From the IMG/VR virus record IMGVR_UViG_3300028559_001021, positions 1 to 64,000 of that record: a stretch of 64,000 nucleotides of DNA; one strand, given 5' to 3'. Made by a program: the position numbers and the translations under genes. This document shows positions 10,077-64,000 of the stretch, in pieces; position 1 is the stretch's first letter, and every line of letters starts with the position of its first letter. Source of the DNA: a virus. The notes below the pieces were generated by a model. That model was not told the origin of the DNA. It was given only the letters and a program-made list of their open reading frames with translations, and ran no database searches.

Positions 10077-10135
10077 TTTTATATTTTTAAGTTTAGTATA
10101 TTAGCTGTCATACAAGATGACATTTACCTTATCCT

Positions 10136-10146
10136 TATAAATATAG
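10136..10146 (-). promoter_or_regulatory. Promoter-like motif upstream of DNA polymerase
   Basis: The minus strand reads CTATATTTATA about 60 bases upstream of the ATG at 10076. It is a looser match and further from the gene than the other copies, leaving a leader of about 60 bases that may carry regulation. The rest of the 145-base gap shows nothing I recognise. Confidence 0.35.
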
Positions 10147-10221
10147 TATGACGATGGGGTTAAGTCAATAAAAAGTTGGTGATAAATTAATACCACCAAC
10201 TCTTAATATTGAATAAATTAT

Positions 10222-11907: not shown

Positions 11908-11934
11908 ATTTAATTTTTTTTATTTTATGTTTAT

Positions 11935-12318
11935 TTAAGAATATACTCTAATCTCAATTGGAGTGTCATCTAATACGTCATCAGTTGGAGCTCCAGTTGC
12001 TATTGTGATTATATCATCATTCGTTATTGAAACACTAACAATATCTTTAGAACCATTAAAAAAATATGAAAATAAAATTTTAGAACTATCAGAAAAAGCC
12101 CCAATTAGAGTCCCCCTATAAGTTCCAGTTGATTGTCTAGTCCAAACTAATTCTCCACCCAATGTATTGTCTAACACAACTGCGGTTGGGTTAGATGTTC
12201 CGGTTTGTGTTAATTTTGCGGTATAAACCTTATAGGGTAACCCCAATGAACCACCATTTATGTTTAATGAATCAGTATCTATTGAACCCGCAATTAATCT
12301 ATCTACTTTTAATGGCAT
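11935..12318 (-). CDS. Tail appendage protein sharing the MPLKVDRLIAG tag
   Basis: A 127-residue protein whose start (MPLKVDRLIAG) and upstream leader are nearly the same as those of the following gene at 11907. The remainder is a beta-rich domain (YKVYTAKLTQTGTSNP, ELVWTRQSTGTYRGTLIGAF, VSVSITNDDIITI), typical of small fibre-tip or collar modules. The two genes probably arose by duplication of the tag and now attach different domains to the same virion site. Receptor binding is likely but not shown. Confidence 0.6.
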   Translation of the reverse strand: MPLKVDRLIAGSIDTDSLNINGGSLGLPYKVYTAKLTQTGTSNPTAVVLDNTLGGELVWTRQSTGTYRGTLIGAFSDSSKILFSYFFNGSKDIVSVSITNDDIITIATGAPTDDVLDDTPIEIRVYS

Positions 12319-13707: not shown

Positions 13708-13717
13708 TATAAATATC
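13708..13717 (-). promoter_or_regulatory. GATATTTATA promoter motif of the small-RNA-like unit
   Basis: An exact GATATTTATA on the minus strand lies 18 bases before the ATG at 13689. It faces the terminator at 13513-13539, with no conventional gene between them. Confidence 0.55.
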
Positions 13718-13816
13718 CTATTTAGTTCCCAAACTTATTATTTTTTTCACTAAATATTTTTTCATCAAATCTTATATAAATATAACCACCAACATCATAA
13801 TAAAGTTCCAAGGTTA

Positions 13817-15490
13817 TCAATTTTCTTTTCTTAATTTTGAATCGTAATGTTCATATCGGTTATGTTCGGTGGGGGTGATTAATAATAAACCTGGTTTAAT
13901 ATTACCCTTTATTGTTTCTTGGTAACAATAACTCATTAAAGTCTGTTCAAATGCTTTTTGCCACCTTGTCTCCAAGTAACATTTGTAATTACCCTCCTTA
14001 CTCAATACAATAGGCCAATTACATAAATAAATCTCACCACTAACATAAGGAATACCTTTATGTGATTTTATATATTTAAACTCAGTTCTTGGGGCGTCTA
14101 TATCGTAACCAAATTTTGGTAACTTTGTTTTGTTCGGCCAATGTTTTTGTCTGAAATCTTGAGGAACATTATACCATGACCATTGTGTCCCATTGTCACC
14201 AAAGAATTCTGTATAGTTTAATTTTAAAAAATCAAAGTTTTCTTTTTGAATGATTTCCAAACTTTTTCTATATAAACCTTTAACATATCTATTAAAACCA
14301 TTTTTACAAGTTTCATTTTTTGGATAAAAAAACATATCATCCTCAAACCAAAAATAATAGTTTAAATCAGTATCGTTAAAATGTTCAGCAACAAATACCC
14401 TTCCACCCATTATACCCAAGTTGTCTTTCTTAATATGTTCAAATCCGTATTGGTCACATAACTCTTTATACCTTGGAGTTGTTGTTAAATCAGTTGAGTT
14501 ATCCAATAAGAACTTTTTTGGTTTGTTAATAAAATCCTTATCGTATTCCAGCATTGATTTAATCAAGGTTTCAAACTGACTTGGGGAATTAAATGATATA
14601 ACATATAACCCAACCTTATCAATTGATTGATTTGTTATTTTAGGTAATTCTTTTGTTTCTTTTTTTGGTACTAACTTATCATTCTTTAAATCCTCAAAAA
14701 ATTTACCCATTAATCCATTTCCCTCAATATCAAAATAAGTTATCATATTTGGATACAGATAAGTCATAAGGGTAAAAATACTTTCCTCAGTTCCCATATA
14801 TCCTTTGGATAATGTATCAACAAGAAGATGATAATATAATGTATTAATTTCACTTATTGTTTCCTTTTTACCGCCAAAGAAACCACCTCTTGCGACCTTA
14901 TCTATTTTTGAATTGGTCAAACGATTCATTTCATTGTAATTGAATCCGTGAATTTCAGTTGATGCTTCGTAGGGAAAACAAACAAAGTTAAAATCACCCA
15001 AATATTTTGGTAACTTATTTAATACTTTATCGTGGGTGAAATAACCTGGATGAATTGTATTACATAGACCAGCATCAATCCAAAACATATATTCTGAATC
15101 AAATGAGTCATATATCTTTGCATCGTGCAATAAAAACACTTTGGACATAACTAGGGGGTTATATAACTCAAGTTTAGCTTGGGTTGAATCTGTTAACCAA
15201 CCAACTTGATTATACCAATTTGGATTTGTTCTAATGTTTTGTATTTTATCAAAGTATTCATTATTCTTAAACCAATCTAAATTTCTTAAAATAAATCTTG
15301 TGTTGGTTTTATTTCTTTTTTTGAATACAAATTCTTGTAATTCTTGGTCACCAAAAATTATCATATTTTCCTCAACCTCTAATAGTCTGGAAAACTTATC
15401 CAAATAGTGTTGATATGAACGAGACCAACCTTCATTGAGGTTTCCTCTCCCAATATCCCAAAGTCCTGTTACTAATGTAATTTTACTCAT
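13817..15490 (-). CDS. Bifunctional glycosyltransferase: HtrL/YibB-like domain plus GT2-like domain
   Basis: A 557-residue, two-domain protein. Residues about 1-270 resemble the HtrL/YibB/WlaTC family, with YMFWIDAGLCN and later GGFFGGKKETI, which frame the presumed donor site. Residues about 290-540 look like a GT-A fold: VGLYVISFNSPSQFETLIKS at the start, LDNSTD, and an acidic YYFWFEDDMFF where a DxD metal site is expected. Both halves probably transfer sugars. It overlaps the next gene by one base (TAATG), so the two are co-translated. The acceptor could be virion protein, DNA or host glycan. Confidence 0.7.
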   Translation of the reverse strand: MSKITLVTGLWDIGRGNLNEGWSRSYQHYLDKFSRLLEVEENMIIFGDQELQEFVFKKRNKTNTRFILRNLDWFKNNEYFDKIQNIRTNPNWYNQVGWLTDSTQAKLELYNPLVMSKVFLLHDAKIYDSFDSEYMFWIDAGLCNTIHPGYFTHDKVLNKLPKYLGDFNFVCFPYEASTEIHGFNYNEMNRLTNSKIDKVARGGFFGGKKETISEINTLYYHLLVDTLSKGYMGTEESIFTLMTYLYPNMITYFDIEGNGLMGKFFEDLKNDKLVPKKETKELPKITNQSIDKVGLYVISFNSPSQFETLIKSMLEYDKDFINKPKKFLLDNSTDLTTTPRYKELCDQYGFEHIKKDNLGIMGGRVFVAEHFNDTDLNYYFWFEDDMFFYPKNETCKNGFNRYVKGLYRKSLEIIQKENFDFLKLNYTEFFGDNGTQWSWYNVPQDFRQKHWPNKTKLPKFGYDIDAPRTEFKYIKSHKGIPYVSGEIYLCNWPIVLSKEGNYKCYLETRWQKAFEQTLMSYCYQETIKGNIKPGLLLITPTEHNRYEHYDSKLRKEN

Positions 15491-16365
15491 TATTGTTTTA
15501 TTTCTTCTAAAATCTTATAGAAACTTTTATTTAGTTCTAAATAATTTATTGGATAATCGCTTGTTAAATTATCTTCGTGTAACCAAACATCAAAAGAATG
15601 TAAATTAAACAAGTTATTATTATCACTAAAAATTAATGACATAAATTGTTCTTCTGAATATAATTTATGTTCTGCGTTTGTTACTACTAAAAATAATCTT
15701 TCAAATTCAGTTACAAGTTCTTTTAACCTTTCTTGTTTACCTCCAAATAATCCACCAATAATGTGTAATGAACTATCGTAATTTTTATAAAACTTACTTG
15801 GGATTGTATTAGACCAATAGTTAGAACCAATATTTGATTTACCAATCAAAAATAATTTATCCTTACTTTTATCTATTAAATTAGATAAAAATTTATTATC
15901 AAATAAATTAGAATTAAAATATCTTTGATAACTATGATTGTTAATTAAATGTTTATCTGGCAATATACCAGTATGACTTATTCCAGCATCAATCCAAAAA
16001 CAATAATCGTAGTCAAACTTATTTTGTAAAAACCAAAAGAATTTATTATATTGTATCTCAAAACATCTATCACCATTTATTACACTTTCGACATCCTTAA
16101 ATTTTGATATTACATCAAAGTGTTTGGTACTTTTTAAATCAAACACAACAAATTCCAATCTATTTTTAGGGATTTTATTTTGGTTATAAAAAAAATCTTC
16201 CAATACTTTTTTTTCCTCAAAACTAGTATAACAAACAAAATCAGCGTCAGACATTCTTAATAACGACAATAAACTAAATTTATATTGTTCAAATCTACTA
16301 GGTCTTCCACCAAATTCACTTCCATATAAATTTCCGTATATACAAGTCAAGAATAATATTTTCAT
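15490..16365 (-). CDS. HtrL/YibB-like putative glycosyltransferase
   Basis: A 291-residue single-domain relative of the N-terminal half of the neighbouring 557-residue protein. It shares YCFWIDAGISH and GGLFGGKQERL, and the start MKILFLTCIYGNLYGSEFGG has the expected first beta strand. It is likely a paralogue from duplication. A hairpin with a 7-bp stem (16388-16404) lies 23 bases upstream and may modulate its expression. The reaction and sugar are unknown. Confidence 0.6.
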   Translation of the reverse strand: MKILFLTCIYGNLYGSEFGGRPSRFEQYKFSLLSLLRMSDADFVCYTSFEEKKVLEDFFYNQNKIPKNRLEFVVFDLKSTKHFDVISKFKDVESVINGDRCFEIQYNKFFWFLQNKFDYDYCFWIDAGISHTGILPDKHLINNHSYQRYFNSNLFDNKFLSNLIDKSKDKLFLIGKSNIGSNYWSNTIPSKFYKNYDSSLHIIGGLFGGKQERLKELVTEFERLFLVVTNAEHKLYSEEQFMSLIFSDNNNLFNLHSFDVWLHEDNLTSDYPINYLELNKSFYKILEEIKQ

Positions 16366-16387
16366 TTTTTGTTCACAAATTTTATAT

Positions 16388-16404
16388 GTTCACGCTCCGT
16401 GAAC
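16388..16404. repeat. Perfect inverted repeat GTTCACG-CTC-CGTGAAC
   Basis: A 7-bp perfect stem with a 3-base loop sits in the 43-base gap between two leftward glycosyltransferase genes. There is no T-run, so it is not a standard terminator. A partial echo (GTTCAC) occurs again at 16371-16376. It could be an attenuator, an mRNA processing site or an operator. Confidence 0.5.
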
Positions 16405-16408
16405 AAGA

Positions 16409-17653
16409 TTATAAATTACCAACTATTCTATCACACCACCCCTTTGATTTTGAATGAGGCCAAACAACCCAATATGATGGTTTCTCAACGGTTTGGAATT
16501 CTCTCCATACCTTACAATACCCCTCATCATTTAACATTCTATTAACTTCATTCTCATCTGCGTCTTGTCTGAATAATGTTTCATCTTTTTTATTGTGGAA
16601 AGCCACCACCCAAAAATCATAATCCTTTTCTTGTACTTGACTAAAATGAATATCAATACAATGTTTGAATATACTTGAAAAACTTTTGACATAATCTTCA
16701 TCATTATCATAACTTAGATTGGGGGGATATTTCTTATCCAAGGTATATTGTTGTACTCCCCTTATATTAAATTTAATTCCAGCGTATTTCTCAAAGTCTT
16801 CCAATGTCCTTTCAGTTCCAAAACCATAAATCCCAAAATCATTTGGATTAAATACTTCACCATCCATACCAAATAACTTTCTGTTTCTTAGATGGGATGC
16901 TTCATTTTTCTTAAACCATACCTTATCATCATCCCATTGTTTAACTCTGTTTTTTCTTTGATATTCATGCCAAATTACAACTTTATGTGGATGAAACAAA
17001 TCATATCCGTGAGTATACGCTCTTACACCAACTGAAATTTCCTCCCCGTGAAAATAATAATTGGGGTCGTGTTGAACTTCTTTACTGAATTGTCCTAATG
17101 TAAAACAGAAATGAGCAGAATAGAATCTGGCTTTTATTGGTTTTGTCATTTCTCTCCATCCTGGAATTACTTCAGGTAAAAAGAAAACAGCACCTTCAGG
17201 TATAAATCTATCAAATGTCATTCTCCAAGGTTCAGTAACCCTACCTTGTGGGTCATTGTCTGGGTCAAATGATGAAACATATCCTGTTAGTAATGGTTTG
17301 GGATATCCTTTAGATTGTAAGTCCTTAATCATATTAATTAAGGTTTCATCCCAATCTTGTTCAAATCTCATATGAGAATCTAGTTGGAGTGTATATTCTT
17401 CATTGTTATATAATTGTTGTATTTTATTTCTAGCCCAACAAGCCCCCATACTTTCATCACATAGAACATTAATTATTCTAAATCGTTTATCACTTTCAAA
17501 CTCCTTTATATTAAATTCATCACTCGGATGATATTGGTTACAAATACCAAAAATTAAATTATTTGGGTATTTTGAATTATCTATACAATCTTTAATTGTT
17601 ATACTGAGTTGGGGGTCTCGGTAACTAGCAATCTGTATGAAAATTTTATCCAT
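16409..17653 (-). CDS. Polypeptide GlcNAc-transferase-like glycosyltransferase
   Basis: A 414-residue protein with the layout of the GlcNAc family (Skp1-type UDP-GlcNAc:hydroxyproline/threonine transferase relatives). It starts IFIQIASYRDPQLSITIKDC. The segment DESMGACWARNKIQQLY is followed by LQLDSHMRFEQDWD (residues about 90-101), in which DSH takes the place of a metal-binding DxD. HGEEISVGVRAYTHGYDLF and FHPHKVVIWHEY complete the signature. The enzyme should add GlcNAc or a similar sugar to a protein. The Thr/Pro-rich tail stalks encoded just downstream are plausible targets. Confidence 0.75.
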   Translation of the reverse strand: MDKIFIQIASYRDPQLSITIKDCIDNSKYPNNLIFGICNQYHPSDEFNIKEFESDKRFRIINVLCDESMGACWARNKIQQLYNNEEYTLQLDSHMRFEQDWDETLINMIKDLQSKGYPKPLLTGYVSSFDPDNDPQGRVTEPWRMTFDRFIPEGAVFFLPEVIPGWREMTKPIKARFYSAHFCFTLGQFSKEVQHDPNYYFHGEEISVGVRAYTHGYDLFHPHKVVIWHEYQRKNRVKQWDDDKVWFKKNEASHLRNRKLFGMDGEVFNPNDFGIYGFGTERTLEDFEKYAGIKFNIRGVQQYTLDKKYPPNLSYDNDEDYVKSFSSIFKHCIDIHFSQVQEKDYDFWVVAFHNKKDETLFRQDADENEVNRMLNDEGYCKVWREFQTVEKPSYWVVWPHSKSKGWCDRIVGNL

Positions 17654-53226: not shown

Positions 53227-53721
53227 ATGAAAAGAATTGTTAAATTAACTGAACAAGATTTGGTTAAAATTGTTAAAAAAATTGTAAACGAAAAGGATTA
53301 CGGACAAGTTCAAAACTATATGTTCTTTTCAAACCTTGAACAAATGATTAGTCAAGCACAACAACTATTGGAACTTGACCCAATGAAAGTTGAAAAAATT
53401 CTCCAAGACGGTCACGATTGGGCTGATGACCATATAACCGTAGCAAAAGAAAATCTTGACCAAGTATTTGATTTTATGATGAATGAATCACAATTTGCTA
53501 GATCTGTTGATTATAATAGAATGGAAGACAATGAAGATATGGTTATGATGGAATCAGAATTAAATGAAAAGAAGAAAAAGAATACCCCAACAAACCCAAA
53601 ACTATGGCAATCTGCACTATCTTGGGCTAAAAGTAGATATAAAGTTTGTCCCTCGGCTTATTGTAATGGTGCAGCTGTCAAACGATACAATAGTCAAGGT
53701 GGAAAATGGAAGAAAAAATAA
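53227..53721 (+). CDS. Putative internal head protein with leader and a Cys/Gly C-terminal domain
   Basis: A 164-residue protein. The leader MKRIVKLTEQDLVKIVKKIV, then NE, is almost the same as that of the 56255-56620 protein. The middle is acidic and helical. The last 45 residues (NPKLWQSALSWAKSRYKVCP, SAYCNGAAVKRYNSQGGKWK) form a small Cys/aromatic domain seen in other phage proteins (PSAYANG-type). The leader fits a capsid-targeting sequence with prohead-protease processing after a Glu. A terminator follows. Confidence 0.62.
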   Translation: MKRIVKLTEQDLVKIVKKIVNEKDYGQVQNYMFFSNLEQMISQAQQLLELDPMKVEKILQDGHDWADDHITVAKENLDQVFDFMMNESQFARSVDYNRMEDNEDMVMMESELNEKKKKNTPTNPKLWQSALSWAKSRYKVCPSAYCNGAAVKRYNSQGGKWKKK

Positions 53722-53778: not shown

Positions 53779-54276
53779 ATGGATAAACAAAAATTATGTT
53801 CAGTTTGTGGTATACTAAAAGATATATCAGAATATTATGAGTCACAAAGGGGAACTAAGTGTAAAGAATGTGTATTGACAATAACTAGAAATTACAAAAG
53901 AGAAAAAAGAAAAGATATTGAATTTAAAAAGGTTGAGAGTGTTAAACAAAAAGAACGAAGATTTAGATTGTGGATTAATTATCTATTTCACGATTCAAAA
54001 AGGAGAAATATAGAACATACAATTACAAAAGAAGAAATTGAAGACATTTATAATAATCAGAATGGTTTATGTTATTGGTTTGGTGTTCCTCTAACCCCAT
54101 CAACAAAACACAAATACCCATTACAACCATCTTTAGATAGATTAGATAGAAATAAAGGATACACTAAAGATAATATCGTGATTTGTTGTTATACAGCAAA
54201 TATTGGTAGAAATGAAAATGATTTGGAAACTTGGTTAGAATTTTTAGATATTCTTAAAGTCACAATGAAATTCTAA
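53779..54276 (+). CDS. HNH homing endonuclease
   Basis: A 165-residue, free-standing HNH endonuclease. A zinc ribbon lies at the N-terminus (CSVC at 7-10, CKEC near 33-36). A basic linker follows, then an HNH-type core (NNQNGLCYWFGVPLTPSTKH, LQPSLDRLDRNKGYTKDNIV, ICCYTANIGRNENDLETWLE) in which the Asp-Arg and Asn residues mark the His-Me finger. It lies between two terminators with its own promoter, typical of an inserted mobile gene. Confidence 0.82.
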   Translation: MDKQKLCSVCGILKDISEYYESQRGTKCKECVLTITRNYKREKRKDIEFKKVESVKQKERRFRLWINYLFHDSKRRNIEHTITKEEIEDIYNNQNGLCYWFGVPLTPSTKHKYPLQPSLDRLDRNKGYTKDNIVICCYTANIGRNENDLETWLEFLDILKVTMKF

Positions 54277-54387: not shown

Positions 54388-54600
54388 ATGAAAAAACTAA
54401 TTGGTCTAATTGTATTTACTATTTTCCTCATTTCTTGTTCCGCACCAAAAACAGTCTTTAATGGAAAAGAGTATGTAACAGAAAAAAGATATTATAAAGA
54501 TAACTTAAAATTAGTCAAAAAAACACTCAGACAAATGAGTAAAGAAGAACAAAAAATTATTCTTGGGGATGACATCATCTTCAAATACGAAGAGAAATAA
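54388..54600 (+). CDS. Small phage-encoded lipoprotein
   Basis: A 70-residue precursor. MKKLIGLIVFTIFLISC is a signal peptide with a lipobox (LISC, lipidated Cys17). About 53 charged residues follow (SAPKTVFNGKEYVTEKRYYK, TLRQMSKEEQKIILGDDIIF). It should be anchored to the host inner or outer membrane. Small phage lipoproteins often block superinfection or interfere with lysis timing. The 25-base leader before its ATG is nearly identical to that at 55830. It converges on the OmpA-domain gene, three bases away. Confidence 0.75.
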   Translation: MKKLIGLIVFTIFLISCSAPKTVFNGKEYVTEKRYYKDNLKLVKKTLRQMSKEEQKIILGDDIIFKYEEK

Positions 54601-54603
54601 ACT

Positions 54604-55743
54604 TTACACTACTTTCAAAGTGCATGCGTCAATTGTTAACACAAGTTTTGGTTCATCAACCTCTTCTGGTGTGGCAACATTAAATGAAGAAGTTTCTCCT
54701 TTTTCATTTGTAAATTCTATACCACCAACACCTCTATGACATTTATATCCCCATTGAGCTGAATGAAACCATTTATGTTCAGAATTTTCGATATATGTAA
54801 ATTGAGTACCATTATATTCAAGTCCACCCAAATTCGGTTTATTAGTTGTAAACCATTGTGTTAAATCAGTTATTTTTGGATAAGCATTAAGTAAGTCAGT
54901 TGGGGTTGGATAATAACTAACTAAATTTTTACATGTTAGTTGAATTGAAAGTTCGTTATTAGCATCTTGGATGGCTTTCATTGTTGTATCATCAACAGTA
55001 AATAGATTTTCTCTTGGTCCTCCAGGATTATTTGATAATGGATACTTTTTAGTTTCGTACTCAACTTTACCCTTAGCGTTTCTAACAGCTATTTTTTTAT
55101 CTTGTATTGAATACCCAGCGTTATCTATAACACTACCATTATTTAACGAGGCGTATTTAGCACCATCACCATCCCTTTTCAATAGAATACCATTAACCGA
55201 CACTTCAAAAACAGCCGAATTGCAATTATGACCACCATGTACATCTTCATTATAAAATACCCTTATCTTCATATTTTTAGCACAAGGTGGTTTTTTGGGT
55301 GGTGTTTTAGGTTCACTAATTACAGAAAAACTAATTTCAACGCGTCTATCATATTTTTGTTCTTCAGCCGTTGTACCTTTACCAACTATTATTTCAGGTT
55401 CTTCAAATGTTGGTATTGTTTTTATGTATCCTTCGTTTATTGCGTTTTGGAAAAAATTCGTTAAAAATTTTTTAATTGTTTCAGCTCTCAAGATTGCCAA
55501 TTGTCTTGTTGGTATTTTTTTTGATGGGGATACCTCATTATCGTAATTTTGATTTTTATCTTCGGATGCCAATATTTTAACAGATGTTGTTTTACCTTCA
55601 TTTTTTCTTATAAAATCTAAGGCTTTTCCTAGTTCAATTGTTAAATTTTTAGTACCTTGTGTACTCAATTTGGAGTGATAACCTGGATCAAAAAAATCTG
55701 AACTATTTATGTCTAATTTTTGTTCCTTAATTAATCCATACAT
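54604..55743 (-). CDS. OmpA-domain protein, putative peptidoglycan binding
   Basis: A 379-residue protein. Residues about 25-140 resemble an OmpA/MotB C-terminal domain: TSVKILASEDKNQNY, RQLAILRAETIKKFLTNFFQ and KYDRRVEISFSVI, the usual closing strand. A Pro-rich linker (PKTPPKKPPC) leads to a unique C-terminal region of about 220 residues with HGGHNCNSAVFEVSVNGILL and KWFHSAQWGYKCHRGVGGIE. There is no signal peptide. The N-terminal MYGLIKEQKL may be a head-targeting leader. It could help anchor to or pass the host cell wall. Function is inferred. Confidence 0.6.
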   Translation of the reverse strand: MYGLIKEQKLDINSSDFFDPGYHSKLSTQGTKNLTIELGKALDFIRKNEGKTTSVKILASEDKNQNYDNEVSPSKKIPTRQLAILRAETIKKFLTNFFQNAINEGYIKTIPTFEEPEIIVGKGTTAEEQKYDRRVEISFSVISEPKTPPKKPPCAKNMKIRVFYNEDVHGGHNCNSAVFEVSVNGILLKRDGDGAKYASLNNGSVIDNAGYSIQDKKIAVRNAKGKVEYETKKYPLSNNPGGPRENLFTVDDTTMKAIQDANNELSIQLTCKNLVSYYPTPTDLLNAYPKITDLTQWFTTNKPNLGGLEYNGTQFTYIENSEHKWFHSAQWGYKCHRGVGGIEFTNEKGETSSFNVATPEEVDEPKLVLTIDACTLKVV

Positions 55744-55829
55744 TGATAAGATATATTTTTACTCATCCTCAGTTATTAATAATCTATTTTTATACATTTT
55801 TCTCTTTTATCATAAATATAATCACAACA

Positions 55830-56240
55830 ATGAAAAAAGCAATTCTAAGATTCTTCAAAAGACTTTATGTCAAACTTACAATCCTCAACAGAAAATATTC
55901 TAGTGACTCAAGAGTACCTATTTCTCAAACCCAAAAAATGTGTATGTCAATTGCAAGGAAATTAATTAGACATCCTGAATCTAAATTTCTTATTGCTCCA
56001 ATATCAGATAAAAAATACATCACAAATACAGAGGTAGATTTGTTTATCATATTTGATAAACGTGGCATCAGTATAACCAATCATGTATATCATTATGATG
56101 TTATATTGAGTGATAGAAATTGGTATAAAATAATCAAAATGTATGATACCAAAGTTGAAGAAATCAGAGAAAAAGTTGAAATCCAAGTAATGTCTCAAAT
56201 CGAACATTCTCTTGAGAATATTCTTCAAAAAGTAAAATAA
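55830..56240 (+). CDS. Small basic protein sharing the lipoprotein leader
   Basis: A 136-residue protein from ATG 55830; the frame extends upstream but that part is unlikely to be coding. It starts MKKAILRFFKRLYVKLTILN, strongly basic and hydrophobic. It continues VPISQTQKMCMSIARKLIRH, TEVDLFIIFDKRGISITNHV and an acidic helical end. Bases 55813-55829 repeat the leader of the lipoprotein gene (TATAATCACAACA before ATG), so the two may be regulated together. A membrane-associated host-takeover protein is possible. No family recognised. Confidence 0.5.
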   Translation: MKKAILRFFKRLYVKLTILNRKYSSDSRVPISQTQKMCMSIARKLIRHPESKFLIAPISDKKYITNTEVDLFIIFDKRGISITNHVYHYDVILSDRNWYKIIKMYDTKVEEIREKVEIQVMSQIEHSLENILQKVK

Positions 56241-56249
56241 GCTACAATG

Positions 56250-56284
56250 AAACCTTACTTTTTAATTAAAGTTAAGGTTTTTTT
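56250..56284 (+). terminator. Terminator between convergent genes
   Basis: AAACCTTA pairs with TAAGGTTT over a 15-base loop, followed by T. It ends the rightward gene and overlaps the stop codon of the leftward gene at 56255. Confidence 0.65.
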
Positions 56285-56620
56285 ATTTTTATTTCCATTT
56301 TTGTCAACGGTTTCAACCTCAAATTCAATCCTAGTCTTACCCTTATTTTTTTCCGATTCAAGTTCTTTAAATTTTCTATTAGTTACAATACCTTCACCTG
56401 GATCAGTAAGCGAAGTATCATATTTCATATTTAAATCCCCATTACTTAATTGTTTTAATGATAACACTTCAATTTTTACCCAACCAGCCCATAATTCCCA
56501 AACTTCACCATCAATAATTATGTTACCATTTTTAGCTGTAGGTGATTCAAGGTCTTCTTTGATTATTCGTTTAACTAAACGTACTAAATCTGATTCTGTT
56601 AATCTTACTATCTTTTTCAT
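56255..56620 (-). CDS. Putative internal head protein with LTExDLxxLVK leader
   Basis: A 121-residue protein whose leader MKKIVRLTESDLVRLVKRII, then KE, matches the 53227 gene closely. A putative protease site (IIKE) is followed by DLESPTAKN and a beta-rich body (GNIIIDGEVWELWAGWVKIE, TNRKFKELESEKNKGKTRIE, FEVETVDKNGNKN). Its ATG overlaps the stop of the upstream gene as ATGA. Leader sharing across unrelated bodies is the main argument for packaging in the head. Confidence 0.6.
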   Translation of the reverse strand: MKKIVRLTESDLVRLVKRIIKEDLESPTAKNGNIIIDGEVWELWAGWVKIEVLSLKQLSNGDLNMKYDTSLTDPGEGIVTNRKFKELESEKNKGKTRIEFEVETVDKNGNKNKKTLTLIKK

Positions 56621-57516
56621 TTTGGTTTGTATGACACCATTGTCGGTTTATTTCCTGTACCAATCTTGGGGTCTTTCTTCTCTTCCCTACGTTTTTGAGT
56701 ACATGCTGACTTCTTCTCAGAATCAGACATCTTACCCGCAACACCAGCAGCCCTACATTTAGGATACCCCTTTGTATCAGATTCACTTCTACCACAAGGG
56801 GGGTGTTTACCATCTACCTTTCTACATATATTAACCCAAGGACCCTTTGGTTGTTTACTACCCTTGGGTTTCTTTTTTGTCCCAAACCACACACCCAAAT
56901 CTTCTTTAATCGTATGAACATCTCCAGTCTCAATTTCATATGAACCATCCTCATCTTTCTCCCACATACCAACAACTTTCTTTATATTATTCTTCATTGT
57001 TGATTTTACCTTTTTACGATTAACTTCAGTATCAACAAATTCTGTAAATGGTGCTAAATTATTATGTTTCCATTTTCTTATACCCAATTCTTGAGGCCCA
57101 TTATATAGTCCAGCCGATGTACTAGAATCCACTTCATTTATATTATACCAAACATTAGTATCCTCAGTTAACATTGGAGCTTCCTCGTAATGCCACTCAT
57201 TCAAATTTTTTGGGGTCTTGGTGACGTTTTTTGTCATTAACTTAGTGTTGGTATTAGTTGAAGATTTTATTGCCTTAGATTCAATTTTTTTGACATCCTT
57301 TTTTGGAGTACTCATTTTACCATCATAACTATCTGTGGTAAGTTCTTGACTATAATACAATGAAACAGATTTATTAAATGGGTCTAATTGTGTTTTTTCA
57401 AATACTCTTTTTCCTAGTTTAAGAGGGGGATTAAACGAACCCCTACTACCACTAGCGTCAGTAGTTGCTTCTTTTAGTATTTCTTGTTTGATTTTTTTAA
57501 TTAAATTCTGTATCAT
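56617..57516 (-). CDS. Putative internal head protein with capsid-type cleavage site and DUF5872-like C-terminus
   Basis: A 299-residue protein from ATG 57516; an upstream in-frame start at 57546 would add an unlikely hydrophobic tail. The leader MIQNLIKKIKQEILKE is followed by ATTDASGSRGSF, nearly the same as the capsid protein's LINE, ATSDASSGSF. The middle is Lys/Ser/Thr-rich. The C-terminal 80 residues (WVNICRKVDGKHPPCGRSES, YPKCRAAGVAGKMSDSEKKS, ACTQKRREEKK) match a DUF5872-like, Cys-containing basic domain. Processing by the same prohead protease as the major capsid protein is likely. Confidence 0.65.
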   Translation of the reverse strand: MIQNLIKKIKQEILKEATTDASGSRGSFNPPLKLGKRVFEKTQLDPFNKSVSLYYSQELTTDSYDGKMSTPKKDVKKIESKAIKSSTNTNTKLMTKNVTKTPKNLNEWHYEEAPMLTEDTNVWYNINEVDSSTSAGLYNGPQELGIRKWKHNNLAPFTEFVDTEVNRKKVKSTMKNNIKKVVGMWEKDEDGSYEIETGDVHTIKEDLGVWFGTKKKPKGSKQPKGPWVNICRKVDGKHPPCGRSESDTKGYPKCRAAGVAGKMSDSEKKSACTQKRREEKKDPKIGTGNKPTMVSYKPK

Positions 57517-57534
57517 TATAAATGAAATTATTAA

Positions 57535-57544
57535 TATAAATATC
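57535..57544 (-). promoter_or_regulatory. GATATTTATA promoter motif
   Basis: An exact GATATTTATA on the minus strand, 18 bases before the ATG at 57516. It also lies directly before the rightward ATG at 57546. Confidence 0.5.
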
Positions 57545-57545
57545 A

Positions 57546-57770
57546 ATGGAACAAGAAAAAATTTACGGTAAATTATTTAATTCCGTACCCCTATTAACAG
57601 AAAATCATCTACAAACATTAATTGATGTAATGGATGAAGAACAAGCAATATTCTTAATTGTACAAGCGGTTAAATACGCTTACCATAATGGAATGTATTC
57701 ACTTGGGGAATCTGAAATAATATCAAAAAGTATTAGAGTGTTATCGGAAAATAAAAATGGTGAAGATTAA
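57546..57770 (+). CDS. Small acidic protein, function unknown
   Basis: A 74-residue helical protein (MEQEKIYGKLFNSVPLLTEN, HLQTLIDVMDEEQAIFLIVQ, AVKYAYHNGMYSLGESEIIS). It is a single rightward gene between leftward ones, converging on 57772. No motif identified; the low-complexity-free sequence and clean start make it likely real. Confidence 0.5.
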   Translation: MEQEKIYGKLFNSVPLLTENHLQTLIDVMDEEQAIFLIVQAVKYAYHNGMYSLGESEIISKSIRVLSENKNGED

Positions 57771-57771
57771 C

Positions 57772-58191
57772 TTAATACTGAGTAGTCGCCGAGGAGTCCA
57801 CCTCCCCCTCAGCAGCACCAGGAGTAGCAGCAACAGGAGGGTTTGATGGTGGTGGGGTATTGTCCGCAGTAGGAGTAGCAGCAACAGGAGGGTTTGATGG
57901 TGGTGGGGTATTGTCCGCAGTAGGAGTAGCAGTAATGCCTAGTTTCGCAAGGATTGCCTTTGCTGTGTTAGTTCCTAATTTTCCATCAATAACAACACCT
58001 AATTTTTGTTGAAGTTGACTAATTGTAGTAGTAGCAACAGGAGGGTTTGATGGTGGTGTTGGGGTATTGACCTCAGTAGCAATAGCTTTTTCGTTACCAC
58101 CACCCGTATTAGTAGGGTCTTCTAATAAAAAACTCTTATGTAATTTTAATATTCTGTTTTTTTCGCTTTCTAATATATATAAATTTTTCAT
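57772..58191 (-). CDS. PG-binding-domain protein with leader and Pro-rich tandem repeats
   Basis: A 139-residue protein. The leader MKNLYILESEKNRILKLHKS, then FLLED, parallels the next gene (ESEKDRILNLH..LLNEQ). Residues about 55-85 (TTTISQLQQKLGVVIDGKLG, TNTAKAILAKLGI) resemble a peptidoglycan-binding domain (PG_binding_1). The C-terminal part is a 17-residue repeat of the type ATPTADNTPPPSNPPVA, encoded by a 51-bp tandem repeat. A packaged cell-wall-binding protein is suggested. Confidence 0.6.
   Translation of the reverse strand: MKNLYILESEKNRILKLHKSFLLEDPTNTGGGNEKAIATEVNTPTPPSNPPVATTTISQLQQKLGVVIDGKLGTNTAKAILAKLGITATPTADNTPPPSNPPVAATPTADNTPPPSNPPVAATPGAAEGEVDSSATTQY
57821..57922 (-). repeat. 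Tandem 51-bp repeat (two copies)
   Basis: Two adjacent 51-bp units (57821-57871, 57872-57922) are nearly identical and encode the 17-residue Pro/Thr/Asn repeat. A further partial copy lies near 58030. Repeat number could vary by slippage. Confidence 0.8.
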
Positions 58192-58195
58192 ATTT

Positions 58196-59206
58196 TTATT
58201 TAAATTTTGAATTAATTAAGTTTATATCATTTTGGGTTAACTTTGGTCCAGTATCTCTACTACCTGTTTTAGCTCTTATCGCATCTAAGGTTGCCTTAGG
58301 CATTGCTGAGTTAAAGACATGTCCTTCAGCAACCGGATAAGTATCTCCGCCACCTCCGCCACCTTCAGCAGTAACAACATTTACATTTTTTGTTTTATCA
58401 ATCGTATGGATTATTTTATTGTTTTCGTCACAAGTAAATTTATAATATGTTTTTACTGTTTTGGGGTCTCTATTTTCTGTATTTGTATCAGTGCTATACC
58501 AATCCCCATCCACAGCATAGTTATATATTCTTCCCTGAACTGTGTAAGAATACCAAGGGGAGCCTTCTTTGTTTGTTAAATTTTTATTTACTTTCAAACA
58601 AGCGTCAAGATTAGTCGCGTCATCCACAATTACTTTTGTTTTACCTGCTAAATATTTTAAATTTTCAAGAATTGCATTTTTGTAACCATAATTACCTTCA
58701 TTTGCATAAATTTCATCAAATGTATCAAATATATTTTCATAACCAGACACTACAGTACCACGTGTACTTATATTTGCAACTGAATAACATACATTTGCCA
58801 TATTATTAAAAGCCTGCAAATTAGTTACAAATTCTTTAACTGCGTCTTCACTCATACCTCTACCATTAGTTACACCAAAAGTACTAATTGAACCTTTTCT
58901 TGCTGCACTAGTAATATTACTAGTTAATTTTTGAATATCTGATAACTCTAAACTTGGTCCTTTTGGGAAAGATTTATCATATTCTTTTTTACAAAAATCA
59001 ATAATCCCAGTTGTAAATGCTCCTCTTCCAGTACCAAAATTATTTAATTTAGCATTAAATTGGGTTTTAGCCGAATCTGTCCAACCACCACCGTCTTGTT
59101 GTATCTCATATGGTGCTTGTTCATTCAACAAATTTCCCTTATGTTTGTTATGTAAATTCAAAATCCTATCTTTTTCAGATTCATCTAAATAATATAATTT
59201 TTTCAT
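58196..59206 (-). CDS. Putative internal head protein, function unknown
   Basis: A 336-residue protein. The leader MKKLYYLDESEKDRILNLHN, then KHKGNLLNEQ, matches the neighbouring gene and ends in a protease-like LLNE. The body begins GGGWTDSAKTQFNAKLNNFG and is helical with several Cys (GIIDFCKKEYDKSFPKG, FNNMANVCYSVANISTR), then a beta region (WYSYTVQGRIYNYAVDGDWY) and a Gly-rich linker before a C-terminal helix. No family recognised. Virion packaging is inferred from the leader. Confidence 0.55.
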   Translation of the reverse strand: MKKLYYLDESEKDRILNLHNKHKGNLLNEQAPYEIQQDGGGWTDSAKTQFNAKLNNFGTGRGAFTTGIIDFCKKEYDKSFPKGPSLELSDIQKLTSNITSAARKGSISTFGVTNGRGMSEDAVKEFVTNLQAFNNMANVCYSVANISTRGTVVSGYENIFDTFDEIYANEGNYGYKNAILENLKYLAGKTKVIVDDATNLDACLKVNKNLTNKEGSPWYSYTVQGRIYNYAVDGDWYSTDTNTENRDPKTVKTYYKFTCDENNKIIHTIDKTKNVNVVTAEGGGGGGDTYPVAEGHVFNSAMPKATLDAIRAKTGSRDTGPKLTQNDINLINSKFK

Positions 59207-59239: not shown

Positions 59240-60943
59240 TCAATAAAAATTAATCCGATACTTAAATAAACCACAATCCCATATCTTGGAGTATCCCAAC
59301 TCTTTTGTAAGTTCACTTTCACTTTTGGTAAAATCAATTTCATTATATTTCTTTTTAAGACTATTCTTCCCAAAAGAAAATTTATGATATCTTTTATATC
59401 TATTCATCTTTGACGAATAATAAAAATATGTAGGTTTCAATATTGATACCAATTCAAATCCTAATTTTGTATACATATTATTGTTTCCATTGGTAGTCCA
59501 TCTTCTATCTGCAAAACTTATTATACTACTTGGAGAATAATCATTAATAAATTGTTTTAATATTTTAGAAGCCAATCCACTTATGACATATTCTTGTCTT
59601 GTTGAGAATCTACTTAATTCATATTCACCTTCAATATTCTTTGTCATATTTCTTTGACTATTAAATGTCATAACACCAACCAAAATCTCATTATAATAAG
59701 CGCCATAAAATATGTCAGATTTATCATTCCCTTGAATATGACTCACATCCAAAAAATATGATTTATCTTCTTTGGATATTTTATTCACTACAACTTTTCT
59801 TGCCCCAATTTTAATCCCATCACTTACACTAAGAATATGTTTTAGTTTTGATTTAGTCAATTCTTTATTCACAACCCACTCATCTTCAAAAATATGAATT
59901 AGTTTATAACCTAACTGATTACACGCTAAAGTTTTATTTAAATGATAAACTGAATTCTTACCCATATTTTCAGTATGGTAATATAAACCATTATATTCTA
60001 TTGCAACTTTAACTGAGGGTATAATTAAATCAATTTCTTTACCTTCCAATAGTTTTCTATTTTTACCCTTATATATCTCAAACCCTAAACCCTCAATAAA
60101 CTCCTTAATTTCAGTTTCACCTTTTGATGTCCAAGTTGGTTGAAAATTAATATTAGTTTCTTTAATAAGTTCACTCAAAATATTAGAGGTAGACTCAGAT
60201 ACAATTTTAGAGTTTGGAAATTTTAGTTTGTATTCTTCAACACTTATGTTGTGTTTATTCTTTAGATGTGTATTTGATATACCCTTCATCTTTTCATTAC
60301 ACAATTGACATATTACGAAGTTTTCTTCCAACAATAACTCTTTCTCTCTATCAGTTCTTTTAATGTAATTGTGGTGGTACTGTATATCATTTGGGAATTG
60401 GAATAAATATTCATCAAGAGTAATCTTATGTTCATTTTCAATATGATTGGTAAAACAACCTGATTTATTATATATGTCAGTTGTTCCCCAATCACATAAA
60501 TTACATTTTCTTTTAACATCTTTGTCAACTTCTATAATATCAAAATACTCCTCAAACCACTTTTTACCATTAATTTGTTCATATTTTTTTCTTTGATAAG
60601 TGTTTGTTGGAATATTAACATCACCATATATTTCTATGATGTGTTTTGTTAATTTACCTGATAAATTGTTGGGGTCATTTATAGTAATATCAGTTTTCTT
60701 ACATTTAGCGATAAGTTCCTTATCCTCTGATGTGTATTTGTTTACCTTAGATTTTTCTAAATTATTACTATTACCAATCTTAATTTGACCGCCCCTTTTT
60801 TTAATCTCAACATTATTATCTTTTAATATTTGACTAATTTTTCTATGACCAACTTTATAAAGTTCTGCCAATTTATGAGTAGAATATCCTTGATTGGTAT
60901 AGAGTTCTATAATGTTATCTATCTGTGGTATTGTTAATGACAT
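59240..60943 (-). CDS. Large homing endonuclease (zinc fingers, Vsr-like nuclease, GNAT-like C-terminus)
   Basis: A 567-residue mobile gene of the phage Hef-like type. An HTH is at residues 1-45 (GYSTHKLAELYKVGHRKISQ). Two C2H2-like fingers follow (CNLCDWG.., CQLCNEKMKGISNTHLKNKH). A PD-(D/E)xK/Vsr-like nuclease (EIDLIIPSVKVAIEYNGLYY, GYKLIHIFEDEW) is at about 300-360. A GNAT-like C-terminal domain (ILVGVMTFNSQRN, YELSRFSTRQEYVISGLASK, MYTKLGFELVSILKPTYFYY) completes the usual layout. It is inserted behind the capsid gene terminator with its own promoter. Confidence 0.82.
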   Translation of the reverse strand: MSLTIPQIDNIIELYTNQGYSTHKLAELYKVGHRKISQILKDNNVEIKKRGGQIKIGNSNNLEKSKVNKYTSEDKELIAKCKKTDITINDPNNLSGKLTKHIIEIYGDVNIPTNTYQRKKYEQINGKKWFEEYFDIIEVDKDVKRKCNLCDWGTTDIYNKSGCFTNHIENEHKITLDEYLFQFPNDIQYHHNYIKRTDREKELLLEENFVICQLCNEKMKGISNTHLKNKHNISVEEYKLKFPNSKIVSESTSNILSELIKETNINFQPTWTSKGETEIKEFIEGLGFEIYKGKNRKLLEGKEIDLIIPSVKVAIEYNGLYYHTENMGKNSVYHLNKTLACNQLGYKLIHIFEDEWVVNKELTKSKLKHILSVSDGIKIGARKVVVNKISKEDKSYFLDVSHIQGNDKSDIFYGAYYNEILVGVMTFNSQRNMTKNIEGEYELSRFSTRQEYVISGLASKILKQFINDYSPSSIISFADRRWTTNGNNNMYTKLGFELVSILKPTYFYYSSKMNRYKRYHKFSFGKNSLKKKYNEIDFTKSESELTKELGYSKIWDCGLFKYRINFY

Positions 60944-61056: not shown

Positions 61057-62910
61057 TTATCTCAATTCTTGTAAGTCAAATGTTCTAACACCATCAACTG
61101 TAATACGTCCATAAAATCTATTATTAACCATTTTCTTCGCGTATCTTGTCATAATACCCTTGATAGGAGTAAAGTTAAATGGATTATACATTGTAGGTGT
61201 CAATTGAAGTGGCACATACGGAGCATAGATATAACCAGTATCTAACAATGATGTTCCTTTATGTCCGATTAACACTTGGTTAGGTGGGAAGTAAGGGTCA
61301 CGATATACTTGGTATCTACCAGCCAATGTTCCTACTCTTTCAATACCCATATTGTATTGGTCTTGTTCAGGAGAAGCATTTGATACGTGGAAGTATTCAA
61401 GGTCATCAAAGATTGCAGAAACCTCAGAAGAAACAACAATCCAGTTAGCACCACCTCTAAGAGTTGATTTGTGGATTTGAGCTGACAATTGGTTGATTGC
61501 TGTAATCAAAGTTTGATTCCAATCTTTTTGAGTGTAAGAAGTTGTTTGAGAAATTCTTCTCCATCCGTTGTAATCCCATCTTAAATTCCAAGCAGCACCT
61601 TTACGTAAATCACGAAGGATTTCACGGTCAATTTCAGCCGCAACTTGTTCAGATAACAATGCAGTCAATTCTGCTTCAGCGTCAATGTTGTGGAATGCCG
61701 CAACGTCTTGAGCTAATTCAGGTGACCATTGTGCTCTAAGTTTTCTTTCAGACACAGAAACAGTTACAGATTCAAGGTCAAAAGAAACTTCACCAATTTT
61801 ATCTTCAAATTCAAGTTCTTGGTATCTTCTCCATACCGCAGTAAATGAACTAGCTGATGATGCAGAAAGAATAGTTGTACCTGTGTAACCATCTAAAGTA
61901 GACGAATCACAATCAGCACAAACCGGACATGATAAATCAACTTCTAAATAGATACAACCTTCAGGGTCACAAACACTTTCAAAAGAACCACCATTTCCAG
62001 CACCAGAAGCTGTTCCTGTTGGAAAAGTTGTTTGAACTCTTCTTGATGTTGGATTTACAATTGATTTACCATATTGTTGTGTTACAACACGGAATAAAAG
62101 TGGTTGACCGACCGTAATAGGACATGGCGATGCTTCAACAGAGAAATTTGAAGTTGCAATAATTTTAAGGTCAGCTAAGAATGTTTCAGAATCAACTTCA
62201 GCACCATCAGGTCCGACAAGTTTACCCCATCCTTGATAAGAATTCCATCCACAAAGTTTCATCAAAATTTTTCTAATACCAACTTGAGTTTGAGTAATAC
62301 CTGTCGATTCAACAAGTGAACCATTTGACCACTGAACTAGTTGAGTGTTTTGAGAAATTGCTGTCCATGCACCTTTTGAGTAATCAAAAAGACCAGCTGG
62401 TTCTAGACCAGGTTCACTACCTTCATAAAACAAATCATAAAGATTTTTTGCAAATGCTCCAGTGCCTTCGTAACCAGTATTAAATCCAACTCCTTGTCCA
62501 GGATAGTTACCTGGAGCTCCAAGAGGTGAATAGTGTTCAGCGTAAGTGTCCGAACCAGTTCCACCCGAAGCATAACCTTGGATTTTAGGTACGAAGTAGA
62601 ACAATTTACCGATAGGTAAGTTCATTGCTTGTACAGATACGATATCATTCGCCAATAATTTAGAGAATACACGTCTAAGGATTGGAAATACTACAGTTTC
62701 AAAAGAACCTGAGCTTGCGTCAGAAGTCGCCTCATTGATTAAGTATGAAGCTTGGTTTTCATATAACTGAGCTACGTTTTCTTTTAGGTGACCTCTAAGG
62801 CCATCAAGGAATCCTAATCTATCCCATTTGTTAATTGTATCTTCTTTGATAACTTTAAGGTGTTTCAAACCAATATTACCAACAAGACCGCTTTCTAATA
62901 ATGCTCCCAT
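61057..62910 (-). CDS. 23: Major capsid protein (T4 gp23-like)
   Basis: A 617-residue, HK97-fold capsid protein, longer than T4 gp23 (521 aa). Residues 1-60 are a helical delta region (HLKENVAQLYENQASYLINE) with a likely prohead-protease cut after E60, just before ATSDASSGSF; T4 gp23 is cut after E65. LPIGKLFYFVPKIQGYASGG and the last 120 residues (RVGTLAGRYQVYRDPYFPPN, QVLIGHKGTSLLDTGYIYAP, VRTFDLQELR) are typical of gp23. An insertion at about residues 311-338 holds five Cys (CDPEGC, CPVCADC) and may bind metal or cross-link. A terminator follows. Confidence 0.93.
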   Translation of the reverse strand: MGALLESGLVGNIGLKHLKVIKEDTINKWDRLGFLDGLRGHLKENVAQLYENQASYLINEATSDASSGSFETVVFPILRRVFSKLLANDIVSVQAMNLPIGKLFYFVPKIQGYASGGTGSDTYAEHYSPLGAPGNYPGQGVGFNTGYEGTGAFAKNLYDLFYEGSEPGLEPAGLFDYSKGAWTAISQNTQLVQWSNGSLVESTGITQTQVGIRKILMKLCGWNSYQGWGKLVGPDGAEVDSETFLADLKIIATSNFSVEASPCPITVGQPLLFRVVTQQYGKSIVNPTSRRVQTTFPTGTASGAGNGGSFESVCDPEGCIYLEVDLSCPVCADCDSSTLDGYTGTTILSASSASSFTAVWRRYQELEFEDKIGEVSFDLESVTVSVSERKLRAQWSPELAQDVAAFHNIDAEAELTALLSEQVAAEIDREILRDLRKGAAWNLRWDYNGWRRISQTTSYTQKDWNQTLITAINQLSAQIHKSTLRGGANWIVVSSEVSAIFDDLEYFHVSNASPEQDQYNMGIERVGTLAGRYQVYRDPYFPPNQVLIGHKGTSLLDTGYIYAPYVPLQLTPTMYNPFNFTPIKGIMTRYAKKMVNNRFYGRITVDGVRTFDLQELR

Positions 62911-62927: not shown

Positions 62928-64000
62928 TTATTTTAATTTAGACATCAAATCCTTCATTCTTAGGAATTGGGGATTTTCGTATGTTTTTGATTCAATTAAG
63001 TTAATCGCTGAACCTGTTGAAGGTGATTTTTGAATTGTCCTTTCAACTGATTCATTAACTTGTTGAGGTTTTGAACTTGTTAGTTCGTCTTTTAATACTT
63101 TGTATAGATTTTTTGATTCTTTAAGAGTTTCAACACCATCAAATCTTTGTAGAATATTAATTTTTTCTTGTTTTGAAGTTGAATGTTCTGTAAACAATCT
63201 AGTTGCGTACGCCAAATTAGAATTGAAGATTGCAACTTCATCAAGTTTAGTTCTAAAAATATTTAATGCTTTTCTATACTCTTCATTTTTTTCTCTAAGG
63301 ATTTCAAGTTCAGAATTGTCAATAGATTCTTTTCTGATGTGACGTGGTGCGGCTTTTGGTTTCGGAAGACCTTCTCTACCCCAATATTTACCATTTCCTA
63401 AAGTACGTGACGCTTCCTTTGTTTCCATTTTTTTCATCATTGGTTTCATTGGTTTAGCCATATTTTCTTTTCTTGATGATGTTGGTTTCTTTGAAAACTC
63501 ACCATCAAAACTTGGAGAATCAGATTTGTAAATATCTTTTTTAGGTTTACCCATACCTACACCTCTAGTGCCTTGTGGTTGTTTTTTAGTTGGGTAATCA
63601 GTAGTTTTACTAGAATACTTAAATTTAGATGCTGAGCCAAAACCCATACCTTTTGGTTTTTTTGTGGATTTTTTTGATTCCGTCATAAATTCATTGTCTT
63701 CTTCCTCTTCAAAACCTTCAAAGAATTCCTCGTCTGAATAATTTTCTTCCTCTTCAAAATCTTCAAAGAATTCCTCGTCTGAATAATTTTCTTCTTCTTC
63801 AAAACCTTCTCCAAATTCATCTTCAAATGCTGATTCAACATCAGAGTCATCCATTTCAATTTCGTATAAAGTTTCTTCTTCTTCATCGTATTGATGATTC
63901 ATACCATAACCCATATCGTCCATTTCCATCATATCCATGTCCATATCGTCCATTTCCATCATATCCATGTCCATATCGTCCATTTCCATCATTTCATTAG
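62928..64000 (-). CDS. 22: Prohead core scaffold protein (gp22-like), 5' end outside window
   Basis: At least 354 codons, open to the right edge of the window. The visible N-terminal part is acidic low complexity: tandem DMDMMEMD units (30-bp DNA repeat), then two ENYSDEEFFE-type units. The middle is basic. The C-terminal 130 residues (LEILREKNEEYRKALNIFRT, KLDEVAIFNSNLAYATRLFT, KQEKINILQRFDGVETLKES) match gp22-like cores. It is immediately upstream of the capsid gene, as in T4. The core is normally degraded by the head protease during maturation. Confidence 0.75.
   Translation of the reverse strand, partial: NEMMEMDDMDMDMMEMDDMDMDMMEMDDMGYGMNHQYDEEEETLYEIEMDDSDVESAFEDEFGEGFEEEENYSDEEFFEDFEEEENYSDEEFFEGFEEEEDNEFMTESKKSTKKPKGMGFGSASKFKYSSKTTDYPTKKQPQGTRGVGMGKPKKDIYKSDSPSFDGEFSKKPTSSRKENMAKPMKPMMKKMETKEASRTLGNGKYWGREGLPKPKAAPRHIRKESIDNSELEILREKNEEYRKALNIFRTKLDEVAIFNSNLAYATRLFTEHSTSKQEKINILQRFDGVETLKESKNLYKVLKDELTSSKPQQVNESVERTIQKSPSTGSAINLIESKTYENPQFLRMKDLMSKLK
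63713..63805 (-). repeat. Tandem repeat encoding ENYSDEEFFE units
   Basis: A stretch of about 45 bp encoding F-E-E-E-E-N-Y-S-D-E-E-F-F-E is repeated twice in the scaffold gene, differing by few bases. Confidence 0.7.
63913..64000 (-). repeat. 30-bp tandem repeat encoding acidic Met-rich units
   Basis: ATATCGTCCATTTCCATCAT plus ATCCATGTCC recurs at 63913, 63943 and (partly) 63973, encoding MDDMDMDMME units at the exposed start of the scaffold gene. It may extend beyond the window. Confidence 0.75.

Follow-up and report, generated by a model that had tools for sequence, protein, structure and literature searches.

Why would a phage encode, almost side by side, several proteins of the kind expected at the bacterial cell envelope? 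The window analyzed here comprises the first 64 kb of IMG/VR virus record IMGVR_UViG_3300028559_001021, which is 66,745 bases long, and a first-pass annotation singled out within it a trio of genes for a lipoprotein, an OmpA-like protein, and a PG_binding_1-like protein. All three open reading frames exist. The explanation that we consider probable is that the region is the head-cargo locus of a T4-like phage, in which short N-terminal tags act as capsid targeting sequences (CTS) and the tagged cargo is diverse, partly directed at peptidoglycan, and would leave the virion with the DNA.

The minus strand carries, from the right, an S77 protease, a scaffold, gp23, an endonuclease-like gene, and then the genes starting at 59206, 58191, 57516, 56620, and 55743, so that the protease, scaffold, and gp23 are found together in the window's record. 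The gp21-like Peptidase_S77 gene lies beyond the end of the window, at record positions 64900-65640 (Pfam E 8e-23). It is followed by a putative gp22-like acidic scaffold, assigned from position and composition (62928-64000, extending to 64484 of the record), and by the major capsid protein gp23 (61057-62910; Pfam Gp23 E 2.8e-72), which is 40-41% identical to its counterparts in Microcystis phage Mel-JY01 and Flavobacterium phage immuto, two of its best matches in named phages. The endonuclease-like gene (59240-60943; weak MTES_1575 match, 6.8e-5), homing-type by context, separates gp23 from a 336-aa protein (58196-59206), the 139-aa Pro-rich PG_binding_1-like protein (57772-58191), a conserved polyprotein-like protein (56617-57516), a 121-aa protein (56255-56620), and the OmpA-like protein, called from an internal ATG (54604-55743). 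An untagged conserved protein found in many relatives is encoded among them on the opposite strand (55830-56240). Also on the plus strand are a conserved 164-aa protein (53227-53721), an Endonuclease VII-like protein (53779-54276; phrog_1035, E 8.7e-25), and the 70-aa lipoprotein (54388-54600), which has a signal peptide and, by eye, a lipobox-like LISC, and which is conserved in five related loci (L005, L242, L020, L027, and L032).

The OmpA-like label is borne out by fold and not by sequence profiles. The protein matched no Pfam family at E<=1, the OmpA profile included, a profile search of its family against PDB sequences gave nothing at E<=0.01, and tblastn against 50,697 phage records gave zero matches. 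An AlphaFold2 model built from 26 aligned sequences nevertheless reached a pLDDT of ~90 over residues 10-140; its best PDB hits in Foldseek are OmpA-like domains (3td3_H, E 2.8e-5), and VIA-align over residues 7-143 gave Z 11.6 to TagL and 11.3 to OmpA. According to this model, the protein has the beta-alpha-beta-alpha-beta OmpA-C fold. OmpA-like domains bind diaminopimelate through an Asp and an Arg; E61, N66, and R86 are invariant in the alignment of the present family (A3), for which the profile search against PDB sequences gave no residue-level alignment to OmpA. While the fold is shared with the Pfam OmpA-like domain (PF00691), the window protein additionally has a C-terminal region and an N-terminal tag and, by eye, no signal peptide. 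The PG_binding_1-like label holds for the family of 57772-58191, in which the ortholog at locus L019 scores 25.1 bits, above the cut-off, but is weak for the window copy itself, whose match spans just 25 residues (13.9 bits against a cut-off of 23; E 0.063) and gives a poor fold model (mean pLDDT 62).

What the annotation overlooked is that these two proteins share N-terminal tags, which are also present on 58196-59206, 56617-57516, 56255-56620, and 53227-53721. In a search for relatives with the 336-aa protein, several loci aligned over about the first 30 residues only, at 64-66% identity, and alignments of tagged proteins show conservation confined to the tag. The tags are about 22-30 residues long, with a hydrophobic start, a [TN]-E cap, a short helix, and an [ILV]-x-E ending, and they fall into two classes with the consensus MKKLYFLNEEEKNRILNLHESATKRQYLSE/Q (class A) and MKKIIRLTESDLTRIVKRVINE/Q (class B), the slash marking the putative cut site. 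Class A tags are carried by the 336-aa protein (~59120-59206, ...GNLLNE/Q; A7 model E 1.6e-11) and the PG_binding_1-like protein (~58120-58191, ...SFLLE/D; class A model E 3.3e-7), and class B tags by the 121-aa protein (56555-56620, ...VKRIIKE/D; A6 model E 2.6e-14) and the 164-aa protein (53227-53292, ...VKKIVNE/K; class B model E 7.9e-12). A profile comparison of the two classes was weak (probability 18%, E 0.0013), and we do not claim their common descent.

We scanned IMG/VR with one pattern per class (at least 120 stretches each), leaving the end of the tag, i.e., the protease motif, out of the pattern. Among the matches listed, 270 of 273 hits were N-terminal (no more than 15 codons from a start), and [ILVM]-x-E followed within the next 18 residues in 75/79 class A and 136/137 class B non-identical proteins, while the next two 18-residue windows held the motif in 9 and 15 of the 79 and in 29 and 26 of the 137. 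Clustering of the bodies of 204 complete proteins among the matches listed gave 128 families (27 with class A, 103 with class B, 2 with both); this stricter clustering replaced an earlier one in which a cluster of 164 members was chained together by weak hits. Counted by family among these same listed matches, the motif occurs in 25/27 (A) and 102/103 (B), against 2/27 and 5/27 (A) and 21/103 and 18/103 (B) in the further windows. A regular-expression search of the 1,496 proteins of 120 control loci, picked with a dUTPase-like pattern, found no N-terminus of either class. Tag models were then applied to 20 records, namely 12 of the 15 tagged records above 100 kb, the window's record, 5 controls, and 2 named phages. 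At E<=0.01, each of the 13 tagged records had 1-14 matches to class B and 0-8 to class A, with a maximum of 18 in one genome (G030; 14 B, 4 A), and the controls and named phages had none; only the per-genome numbers are informative here because the tagged records were picked for having the tag.

The motif that ends the tags links them to the prohead protease and the capsid. The gp23 propeptide ends in LINE/A at residue 60 (general form L-I-[NY]-E/A), and E60 and A61 are invariant in 115/115 aligned sequences. The C-terminus of the scaffold reads NLIE/SKTYENPQFLRMKDLMSKLK, and the N-terminus of 56617-57516, ...EILKE/ATTDASGSRGSF, resembles the gp23 site LINE/ATSDASSGSF. Proteins of this last family consist of repeated modules with further [ILV]-x-E steps between them, as also seen in the window copy; two members (L052, L039) form a fusion with a class B tag and with the cargo that follows, and two others (L288, L059) have a class B tag at the end. 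In T4, gp21 cleaves after L/I-X-E, Alt is cleaved at both ends, and the first 10 residues of IPIII are enough for packaging (PMC9026906, in excerpt).

Consistent with such a link, tagged genes lie next to gp23. With gp23 as the sole criterion for choosing 80 loci, we found 45 tagged ORFs within 10 kb downstream and 1 upstream (422 and 447 kb searched, respectively, up to 10 kb each), and 19/44 of the gp23-chosen loci with at least 4 kb of downstream sequence contain a strict class A or B tag. In records of at least 60 kb, S77 is present in 21/34 tagged records among the matches listed versus 4/17 controls; at 100 kb and above, the contrast is weak (12/15 tagged records among the matches listed versus 4/7 controls). 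Gp23 was found in 23/34 tagged records among the matches listed, 21 of them above the cut-off. One tagged record of 214 kb, possibly a fragment, matched neither S77 nor Gp23 (G034).

Judged from these sequences, the system appears to work like the T4 CTS, with the motif, the S77, scaffold, and gp23 genes, and the attachment to unrelated bodies all present. T4 likewise has its S77 protease, gp22, and gp23 in one locus, and its IPI, IPII, IPIII, and Alt likewise share a short N-terminal peptide with an L/I-x-E site, one peptide being used on different mature proteins. By this analogy, the tag would take the precursor into the prohead core, binding core or shell; the gp21-type protease would remove it after [ILV]-x-E at head maturation, as with gp23; and the mature cargo would remain in the head and exit with the DNA, its wall domains acting near the entry site. 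As far as our searches reached, several features are new relative to T4: the tags are mostly 22-30 residues long instead of 10, two abundant and exchangeable classes are swapped on the same bodies, a genome can have many tagged genes (up to 18 tag matches), and the cargo is rich in wall-directed domains.

Other phages release head proteins in different ways. The ejection proteins of T7 exit the virion with the DNA and are able to work in the periplasm. To our knowledge, neither these nor the ejection proteins of P22 carry an S77-cleaved address tag, and both sets are few and fixed. Those of P22 also leave the virion with the DNA and can be active in the periplasm (PMC8402733, in excerpt). In SPN3US and phiKZ, head proteins are processed by a gp21 relative and many are ejected (PMC5694885, in excerpt). 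Their proteases cut at A-x-E or S/A/G-x-E instead of [ILV]-x-E, and several of the propeptides, at 124-127 residues, are long and are not known to be swapped among many families.

The class A and B models found no match in immuto, RM378, or three huge phages. In immuto (NC_055915.1), gp083 bears a tag of a different type, MKKQILSEQFRRMQKLAGIITE/, of which gp230 has a near copy, and this type resembles the C-terminus of the immuto scaffold, SEQVSRWQKLAGIIK. Across its entries (L098, L455; gp083, gp230, gp067), two N-termini follow MKKQILSEQF[RK]RMQ.LAGIITE. A further tag variant is seen in a Prochlorococcus SAG contig (L458, QCKH01000009.1), where tandem genes at 7686-12244 start MKIKLTExQ...[ILV]xE; one encodes a thioredoxin domain (E 1.8e-17), and the genes adjoin, by eye, terminase- and portal-like genes. 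In a 484-kb phage (L460, LR756508.1), four short-tagged proteins are encoded downstream of gp23 (13715-16917), with tags including MRLKEILLE/N and MRLKNVLLKE/Q; the bodies look ADP-ribosyltransferase-like by eye only and have no Pfam match. In tblastn searches of named phages the tag peptides by themselves matched nothing, being too short for this to mean absence, and neither the literal tag strings nor any paper on such tags was found in the open-access literature.

The bodies behind the tags are exchanged between the two classes. Homologous bodies with a class A tag in one genome and a class B tag in another were found at 61% (L180/L225), 53% (L134/L327), and 40% (L107/L260) identity, and in the first pair the close similarity begins at the cut site. 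A further candidate, L173 as an OmpA-like body with a class B tag, was dropped since its similarity falls outside the OmpA part. With Pfam at E<=0.001 and one protein able to count under several families, the 71 class A proteins among the matches listed include Phage_lysozyme (6), PG_binding_1 (6), OmpA (6), Tlde1 (2), YkuD (2), PG_binding_3 (2), and LysM (1), and the 131 class B proteins among the matches listed include PG_binding_1 (8), LysM (2), PG_binding_3 (2), NUDIX (1), and SLT (1). Since the majority of class B bodies match nothing in Pfam, "peptidoglycan" describes only part of the cargo. Among 140 random untagged neighbors, the best 25 of 52 families include none of the wall families of the tagged set with two or more members; one Peptidase_M23 was seen, and single wall hits are possible beyond these best 25 of 52.

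An alternative is that the tags do target proteins to the prohead for cleavage but that the cargo is structural, serving in the core, in size determination, or in DNA condensation, with the wall domains being reused binding modules that have no role in the host. The T4 core proteins gp67, gp68, and gp22 are indeed cut to pieces (PMC9026906, in excerpt), and the basic, Cys-containing product of 56617-57516 resembles a processed polyprotein. We regard this alternative as unlikely, however, as tagged proteins include catalytic domains (Phage_lysozyme, YkuD, SLT) and, unlike core proteins, their bodies differ strongly between genomes (128 families among the matches listed).

A different reading would have the N-terminal peptides send proteins to the tail or baseplate, or serve as a handle for assembly in which the prohead protease has no part; the E-ending would then belong to a helix. 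Peptidoglycan-active proteins are common in tails, for example the gp5 lysozyme of T4. This reading is very unlikely given that the tagged genes lie downstream of gp23, that the tags match the gp21 motif and the gp23 site and co-occur with S77, and that the immuto tags resemble a scaffold C-terminus.

The trio as first annotated could instead be a host-envelope module for lysis or superinfection exclusion, expressed in the infected cell, and the lipobox gene does adjoin the OmpA-fold and PG-binding-like genes. Such a module is highly improbable, and the three do not form a unit: the lipoprotein lacks a tag and is encoded on the other strand, its SieB (Pfam E 0.06) and Cor (PHROG E 0.23) matches are not significant, and a charged tag but, by eye, no export signal is seen in the OmpA-like and PG-binding-like proteins. 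That the common N-termini are functionless products of recombination hot spots at conserved gene starts is scarcely credible, for although they occur on many unrelated bodies, their conservation stops at the protease motif, both classes share that ending, and either tag is found on homologous bodies.

A head-cargo locus remains the probable reading, and among the points against it are the weak S77 contrast at 100 kb and above, G034, the lack of class A and B tags in immuto and RM378, and the interrupted tag of the OmpA-like gene. Nearly all of the 33 members of the OmpA-like family in our loci begin with a class A type tag, and in the relatives the tag is open. In the window, the class A-like tag region (55723-55797, minus strand) reads MYKNRLLITEDE, an in-frame TAA stop, and then KYILSMYGLIKE/Q, so that the called ORF holds only the tag end, MYGLIKE/Q. 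The identical interruption is present in contigs from two metagenomes. Because its tag carries a stop codon, translation of the OmpA-like protein may begin at the internal ATG, leaving it unpacked in this genome, or else the gene may be decaying.

The first-pass suggestion that the proteins might bind peptidoglycan during DNA entry would fit cargo that is carried in the head and ejected with the DNA. Since domains that bind or modify peptidoglycan are frequent among the bodies in relatives, the OmpA-like and PG_binding-like proteins would most likely work on the wall near the site of entry. T4 cargo enters the cytoplasm, according to the excerpted text of PMC9026906, and a periplasmic target would need an additional route.

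The proteins that tailed phages inject besides DNA are known for only a few model phages. We tentatively propose, as a joint claim that may well prove too broad, that across a sizeable group of uncultured T4-like phages a few exchangeable, cleavable tags load many different proteins of each genome into the head, that a peptidoglycan toolkit of OmpA-like anchors, LysM, PG_binding, lysozyme, and L,D-transpeptidase-like enzymes is injected with the DNA, and that the tags reveal the injected proteome. A conserved tag readable from sequence, together with its protease site, would allow candidate injected proteins to be listed in many uncultured phages, and cargo directed at the wall would point to a step not recognized so far in the DNA entry of contractile phages, or to their repairing the wall after entry.
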